A DNA stretch of 64,000 nucleotides. It comes from Burkholderia vietnamiensis LMG 10929 (GTDB lineage: Bacteria > Pseudomonadota > Gammaproteobacteria > Burkholderiales > Burkholderiaceae). The notes beneath the pieces were generated by a model. It had not been told where the DNA came from and did not search any database. It saw only the letters and a list, made by a program, of their open reading frames with translations. Made by a program: the position numbers and the translations under genes. The stretch is taken from assembly GCF_000959445.1 (NCBI RefSeq), contig NZ_CP009630.1, positions 1,550,001 through 1,614,000 of the forward strand, given 5' to 3'. Shown in pieces: positions 16,251 through 16,405 of the stretch (the stretch's first letter is position 1; each line of letters starts with the position of its first letter).

Positions 16251-16370
16251 TCAGCGTTTAATGATCGTTTTCGTGGTAATGGTTTTCGTGATGACGATGG
16301 CGCGCGCATCCGCACGGGCAATGTTGCCGTGGGATTTCAAGACCGGGGAGATCAGGGAAATCAGCGCCAT
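16251..16370 (-). CDS. Putative regulatory leader peptide of asd (Ile/Thr/Lys-rich)
   Basis: A 39-codon ORF on the minus strand between leuB and asd, starting MALISLISPV. Its last 15 residues are IVITKTITTKTIIKR: five Ile, five Thr and three Lys. This is what one expects of a ribosome-mediated attenuation leader sensing end products of the aspartate family (compare E. coli thrL), and the next gene, asd, belongs to that pathway. The ATG falls six bases after a TAGACT -10 box, so the transcript may begin at the A of the ATG (leaderless). After the stop, TTCCCCGC (16229-16222) can pair with GCGGGGAA (16197-16190) just ahead of the asd ribosome site. No U-run follows that hairpin, so the mechanism may be translational or Rho-dependent. 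The ORF is too short for ordinary gene calling. Confidence 0.7.
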   Translation of the reverse strand: MALISLISPVLKSHGNIARADARAIVITKTITTKTIIKR

Positions 16371-16376
16371 CGTTCG

Positions 16377-16405
16377 AGTCTACACAAAGCCGGTTGCCCG
16401 CACAA
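16377..16405 (-). promoter_or_regulatory. Predicted asd promoter
   Basis: On the minus strand TTGTGC (16405-16400), exactly 17 bp, then TAGACT (16382-16377). The predicted start point is about 16370, the first base of the leader-peptide ATG. The asd start is about 200 nt downstream. Confidence 0.5.

Follow-up and report, generated by a model that had tools for sequence, protein, structure and literature searches.

What is the role of a short open reading frame (ORF) that ends in a run of Ile, Thr and Lys codons directly in front of asd, the gene for aspartate-semialdehyde dehydrogenase? Ile, Thr and Lys are the three amino acids made through Asd, and we consider it probable that asd is controlled by ribosome-mediated attenuation sensing a shortage of these amino acids. 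The locus lies on the minus strand of the window, the 64,000 nt stretch of Burkholderia vietnamiensis LMG 10929 DNA that was analysed. The order read from the sequence is leuC, leuD, leuB, a promoter-like pair of hexamers, the leader ORF, an 82 nt spacer and asd. The names leuC, leuD and leuB are presumed from pathway knowledge and from a preliminary description of this DNA; the product name of asd is likewise presumed from these two sources.

The leader ORF and its putative promoter in Burkholderia

The leuB stop codon ends at 16501 on the minus strand. The leader ORF (16251..16370, minus strand) begins with an ATG at 16370, ends with a TGA at 16253-16251 and encodes 39 residues (MALISLISPVLKSHGNIARADARAIVITKTITTKTIIKR) with a conserved I/T/K tail; I, T or K account for 13 of the 15 residues of its C-terminal end, IVITKTITTKTIIKR. 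A -35-like hexamer TTGTGC (16400..16405) and a -10 hexamer TAGACT (16377..16382) lie upstream on the same strand, with a spacer of 17 nt between them and 6 nt between TAGACT and the A of the leader ATG. Reading the sequence confirms both elements as they stood in the preliminary description: the 39-codon ORF, with its coordinates and composition, and the putative promoter, with its hexamers and spacing. The asd gene (15047..16168, minus strand; ATG at 16168, 373 aa), which would be the regulated gene of the attenuator, is preceded by the Shine–Dalgarno (SD) sequence AAAGGG at 16175..16180, also read from the sequence. Searches of Pfam and NCBIfam with two leader peptides gave no match.

Conservation was followed in the 80 named loci nearest to the window by Asd protein, 71 of which are titled Burkholderia, Paraburkholderia, Caballeronia or Trinickia (Burkholderia s.l.; Candidatus names and MAGs are included). 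An ATG ORF of 37-58 aa with an I/T/K-rich tail is present in 68 of these 71; L065 has a frameshift, L070 is truncated at the end of its contig, and no leader is present in L067, whose Asd identity is only 85% despite the title Burkholderia sp. Conservation of the peptide tail across Burkholderia, one of the checks that the preliminary description had attached to its reading, is observed. The nine other named loci have the leader in two cases (L077, L078) and lack it in seven, and it is found in all 30 same-genus loci, one of them in the window's own genome. In L065 (a Candidatus Burkholderia) the leader frame is broken about 230 nt upstream of asd and the tail region is still recognisable.

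Within Burkholderia s.l. the length of the peptide varies (37-58 aa) and the I/T/K make-up of the tail is kept; these residues form 77% of the last ten positions, and 76% in family f49, which is presumably Comamonadaceae. The pN/pS ratio of the last ten codons, uncorrected for kinship, is 0.35 in Burkholderia s.l. (33 distinct tails, all pairs) and 0.38 in f49 (32 tails). In genus g28 it is 0.71 (nine tails, likewise uncorrected), a weaker constraint that counts against the attenuator reading.

Small size is the one property that would suit a chance ORF. The 80 named loci and the window contain 1,824 ORFs of 25-80 aa on both strands, of which 69 have at least eight I, T or K in their last 12 residues, and every one of these is an asd leader; all others have at most seven. 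This count, the conservation and the tail pN/pS refute a chance origin, to which we assign practically no probability. Genome-wide, the run itself is less distinctive. The window's genome has 11 distinct places with nine consecutive AHN codons, and the leader is the only one that is a short ORF ending right after the run; the other ten lie inside frames of at least 92 residues, among them a presumably DnaK-like one. The number of matches is ordinary (25, vs 20 for a backward-read control pattern), so only the position of the leader run is telling. No other gene with an I/T/K leader stood out in the window's genome. A scan for such leaders in five relatives gave a noisy result among the matches listed.

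The sigma-70 consensus scan, which asks for 9 of 12 consensus matches, did not list TTGTGC-17-TAGACT, the -35-like hexamer included, and the case for the promoter therefore rests on conservation. A TANANT-type hexamer lies 6-9 nt upstream of the leader ATG in 96 of 104 collected leaders [at 6 nt (62), 7 nt (8), 8 nt (22) or 9 nt (4)], a share that is biased because the script favoured ATGs behind such a hexamer. This spacing is what a transcript start on or beside the leader ATG needs, and a leaderless mRNA is predicted. Of the eight leaders lacking the hexamer (L113, L219, L165, L168, L169, L180, L220 and L221), L113 and L219 belong to one genome and have an SD-like AGGAAG in its place. In Burkholderia cenocepacia, 72 genes are reported to have a transcript start exactly at the start codon (PMC4603805). 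Searched by word, its main text mentions neither asd nor leuB nor a leader peptide, and none was found in the available text of a Cupriavidus metallidurans paper (PMC7563307). In L056 the leader promoter is set apart from leuB by a terminator-like hairpin whose tail is T-rich; such a terminator was detected in 13 of the 68 loci scanned, which does not establish that the leader is independent of the leu operon.

Spread to other families and fusion to LeuB

The preliminary description spoke of a single genus. The leader is not confined to one; I/T/K peptides before asd also occur in other sampled genera of the window's family (f1) and in two further families. In f1 the leader is present in sampled loci of g1, g27, g28, g30, g161, g164, g176 and g177 (12/12 loci in g28, 5/5 in g164, 2/2 in g176 and the single locus of each of g27, g30, g161 and g177) and absent from those of g26, g29 (all seven loci), g163, g168-g171 and g173-g175. 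It is found in 3/3 genomes of family f14. In f49, where 59 genomes gave a match, the 30 best loci were taken, each from a different genus, and the run precedes asd in 26 of these 30 genera; a second f49 set, sharing one genome with the first, has it in 7/7 loci. Sampled families other than f1, f14 and f49 gave no leader. It is missing from 19 of the 20 loci L111-L130 and, at the threshold used, from the loci outside f1 among L131-L158 and from L163, L164 and L172-L178. Some relatives (G013, G029, G031, G032, G459 and G553) have asd twice, the second copy sharing 54-57% identity with the query.

The most unusual part of the system is found in f49. There, 13 of the 26 positive genera (30 sampled) carry the I/T/K run as a C-terminal tail on LeuB, and it stops just before a conserved RNA element upstream of asd. 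Seventeen open frames from 16 genomes (L249, L251, L252, L256, L257, L259, L260, L266, L267, L269, L274, L275, L276, L165, L168, L169 and L170) align to the last residue of the window's LeuB and then carry an extra tail of 6-16 residues, for example ..GDAVVAAITKKTITG and ..GDAVVAALTKTTITKG. The alignment covers all 355 residues in 13 of the 17; for the remaining four, only part of leuB falls within the fetched stretch, which starts inside the gene. Three of these frames (L165, L168 and L169) are among the leaders that lack the promoter hexamer. At these loci leuB itself seems to serve as the leader.

The RNA behind the stop codon is the same in LeuB-fused and free-standing f49 leaders. Four f49 loci lack the run; in three of them LeuB ends 31-45 nt before the asd match, leaving neither a tail nor room for the RNA, and in the fourth another gene lies upstream of asd. 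Taken together, these loci argue most strongly for run and RNA being a single device.

The LeuB tails also bear on the idea of a leader that functions as a small protein, or in trans, with the I/T/K tail being a property of that protein. The N-terminus is indeed conserved too within Burkholderia s.l., a parallel to peTrpL, for which action in trans has been reported (PMC7298713). Against this, the length (37-58 aa) and the middle of the peptide vary freely, and f49 leaders keep the tail and the RNA that follows it, although they begin with an unrelated N-terminal part or with LeuB; we regard this reading as improbable.

Complementary regions in the RNA behind the leader

In the window (all features on the minus strand), a hairpin CGATCA/TGATCG (1:2, 16248..16267) spans the leader stop codon; it was recognised by eye in several groups, and the L198 copy is changed but still pairs. 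Region 2 (GTCCGTCGTG, 16239..16248) follows directly after the stop and is complementary to region 4 (CACGCCGGGG, 16207..16216). Regions 3 (GTTTCCCCGC, 16222..16231) and 5 (GCGGGGAAGC, 16188..16197) are the 5' and 3' arms of a large hairpin. As the preliminary description had it, this hairpin stands just before the asd ribosome site, 7 nt upstream of the SD AAAGGG; it ends 19 nt before the asd ATG. A further possible hairpin, CACGG/CCGTG (16313..16331), lies inside the leader ORF (HGxxAR codons); it was found by eye, its pairing is kept, as judged by eye, in some changed copies and it is a possible pause hairpin.

The same complementarities are present in an alignment of Burkholderia and its kin (A1; 67 of 87 distinct sequences used), in which region 2 (GUCCGUCGUG) pairs with region 4 (CACGCCGGGC) with one mismatch and region 3 (CUUCCCCGC) with region 5 (GCGGGGAAG). 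The two helices interleave, and 91.6% of cells are paired vs 43-55% when the arms are slid. Two-sided changes are few, so that helices 2:4 and 3:5 here reflect mainly sequence conservation; co-variation by column counts was looked for and is weak. In a transcript ending just after region 4, with region 2 free, the best 2:4 pair has a mean predicted probability of 0.96 (above 0.5 in 97% of the 67 sequences), and at equilibrium this drops to 0.05 once arm 5 is made. Helix 3:5 has a probability of 0.06 just after arm 5 and 0.54 in a longer transcript.

In the window's branch 3:5 might lower asd by way of Rho or a pause, through a bound factor, or by slow folding. Equilibrium folding with a masked ribosome gave no support for sequestration of the SD in Burkholderia, SD accessibility showing no change (20 up, 15 down among 72, p=0.67). 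Helix 3:5 shows no trend with ribosome position (n=83, window excluded, first tail length only), and anti-SD:SD pairing is not significantly better with own than with swapped partners in this branch (581/5,000, n=57). Pairing of region 2 with the asd start failed this own-vs-swapped test and was set aside; no more than 5 of 100 shuffles paired as well as the native sequence in 17 of 54 cases for the SD/AUG and in 5 of 54 for the coding part. The whole leader RNA is not more stable than shuffles (z -1.05). Within asd, synonymous variation is low in the first 12 codons after the ATG (0.074 vs 0.234 overall, fifth among 264 windows); a constraint on the RNA could cause this, as could effects that are usual at gene starts. 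Two rare-looking codons at the asd start (15047-16168 in the window), GTA and GGT, are invariant or nearly so among 67 asd genes, and a second zone of low synonymous variation lies near codons 28-31 of the same set.

In f49 and two MAG loci (alignment A2, 34 sequences) the counterpart of region 2 is CCGGUUCGUC, which pairs with GACGAGCCGG as helix 2:4; 89% of cells are paired and two-sided changes are few. The parts follow each other in the window as they do here, with 1:2 over the stop, then 2:4 and 3:5. The loop of the f49 helix opens with a stretch complementary to the asd SD (anti-SD), as in GCGCCCUU:AAGGGCGU, UGCCCCU:AGGGGCA and GCGCCU:AGGCGC. Own anti-SD:SD pairs reach -10.7 kcal/mol vs -9.9 kcal/mol when swapped, a difference equalled in 9 of 5,000 permutations (n=32, uncorrected for phylogeny). 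Co-variation of the anti-SD with the asd SD is thereby supported, and would favour anti-SD attenuation in this family. Masked folding agrees weakly with such a switch. The SD is predicted to be more accessible with a stalled ribosome than with one at the stop (15 up, 3 down among 33 loci, p=0.004, one genome counted twice; mean gain 0.10; shuffled spacers 17% up, 15% down), and many single loci show no change. In some f49 loci a longer helix 3:5 stands in front of the SD instead, and its sequence changes from locus to locus with the pairing kept (GGACCCC:GGGGUCC in L267 and L256, ACAAACCC:GGGUUUGU in L259 and L269). A search for interleaved helices in 12 chosen and 33 f49 sequences found them strong in some and absent in others (f49 mean z 1.4).

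A different reading has the RNA behind the leader bind a protein or small molecule, with leader translation only aiding its folding. It would account for the arms of 3:5, which are nearly invariant in sequence, beyond the needs of simple pairing, and for the 5' arm motif, which occurs once in the genome. It leaves unexplained the I/T/K run, its persistence as a LeuB tail and the co-varying anti-SD of f49, and we hold it to be unlikely.

Transcription attenuation deserves more weight, as a possible account, though we think it less likely than not; 3:5, or a U-rich hairpin in some relatives, would end transcription on full translation of the leader, alone or with Rho. The possible early pause hairpin and the strong conservation of 3:5 fit coupling to RNA polymerase, and several free-standing f49-type leaders (L166, L171 and L077) have, by eye, a weak hairpin and a U-rich stretch before the SD. 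In Burkholderia-type sequences the best case is TTTCCATT after arm 5, with five T in 8 nt, in 7 of 67. Region 5 of the window has no proper U-tract behind it, and the 8 nt after 3:5 contain at most three T in 52 of the 67 aligned relatives and more than five in none. The terminator scan found none on the minus strand at 15900-16700, and these results together rule out a proper intrinsic terminator in Burkholderia. A search of Rfam with 16100-16480 gave no match to Thr_leader or any other family at E<=1. The thrL-like attenuator put forward in the preliminary description stands in part: there is a conserved I/T/K leader dedicated to asd, its promoter spacing being of the leaderless type, and the strict thrL type, with a U-tract terminator and an Rfam match, falls away. 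Elsewhere in the window, 2404-2576 matches Rfam Bp2_287, a Burkholderia sRNA candidate.

Proposed control of asd and known attenuators

In the attenuation that we propose, the transcript would start on or beside the leader ATG and be translated from its 5' end, which would take the ribosome through a run of Ile, Thr and Lys codons, about 12 in all. If any of the three charged tRNAs is short, it would stall in the run and the RNA after the stop would take a fold that permits asd expression; with all three amino acids plentiful it would reach the stop codon, and an alternative fold would lower asd. In f49, stalling would leave region 2 free, 2:4 would form with the anti-SD in its loop and asd would be on. 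A ribosome at the stop would cover part of region 2, or 1:2 would take it up, and the anti-SD would cover the SD. The f49 switch most likely acts on translation.

A widely conserved attenuator-type leader for asd with Ile, Thr and Lys together as its signal is likely. On balance, we lean towards a fuller statement: that an undescribed translational attenuator reads the three amino acids at once and serves asd in a large part of the Burkholderiales, its sensor being fused onto LeuB in part of one family. If true, leuB, which encodes a working enzyme, lends its final 6-16 codons to its neighbour asd as a leader peptide, and the attenuator is the region of the leuB stop. A LeuB tail of this kind would be a case of a structural gene turned leader of the gene beside it, and for betaproteobacteria a single asd leader answering to several amino acids would close a gap in aspartate-pathway control.

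Attenuator motifs for His, Leu, Thr and Trp are listed in a comparative study that also mentions Ile/Val and Phe (PMC3766115). In the open literature searched, which leaves out most subscription papers, no asd leader peptide is described for these bacteria. The comparison with thrL (Rfam RF00506, Thr_leader) fits the sensor part by analogy, both having a Thr/Ile-rich leader peptide before an aspartate-family gene. Unlike thrL, the gene here is asd, the run includes Lys and a leaderless-type start is predicted; there is no proper U-tract in Burkholderia and no Rfam family match at E<=1, and the RNA forms a helix around an anti-SD (f49) or interleaved helices 2:4 and 3:5 (Burkholderia). The leader would work like known amino-acid leaders but lacks the thrL-type terminator in Burkholderia.

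In the Sinorhizobium trpL (peTrpL; PMC7298713) and Corynebacterium ilv and trp attenuators, the start codon lies at or near the 5' end of the transcript and a run of control codons follows. The asd leader resembles these in its control-codon run and its predicted leaderless-type start. They differ in their amino acids and operons, and are known as transcription attenuators. RNA elements before asd are also described in the asd RNA motif RF01732 (Lactobacillales) and in an attenuator-like sequence before Streptococcus mutans asd (PMC2864571). Those elements resemble the present one in their position before asd and belong to another phylum, and the window's leader has no Rfam match. In translational attenuation of the ermC type, ribosome stalling in the leader decides whether an anti-SD covers the SD. 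The proposed asd switch would be of this kind, leader stalling setting the cover of the SD, but unlike the ermC type it would sense amino acids rather than a drug, and its helices come in a different order.
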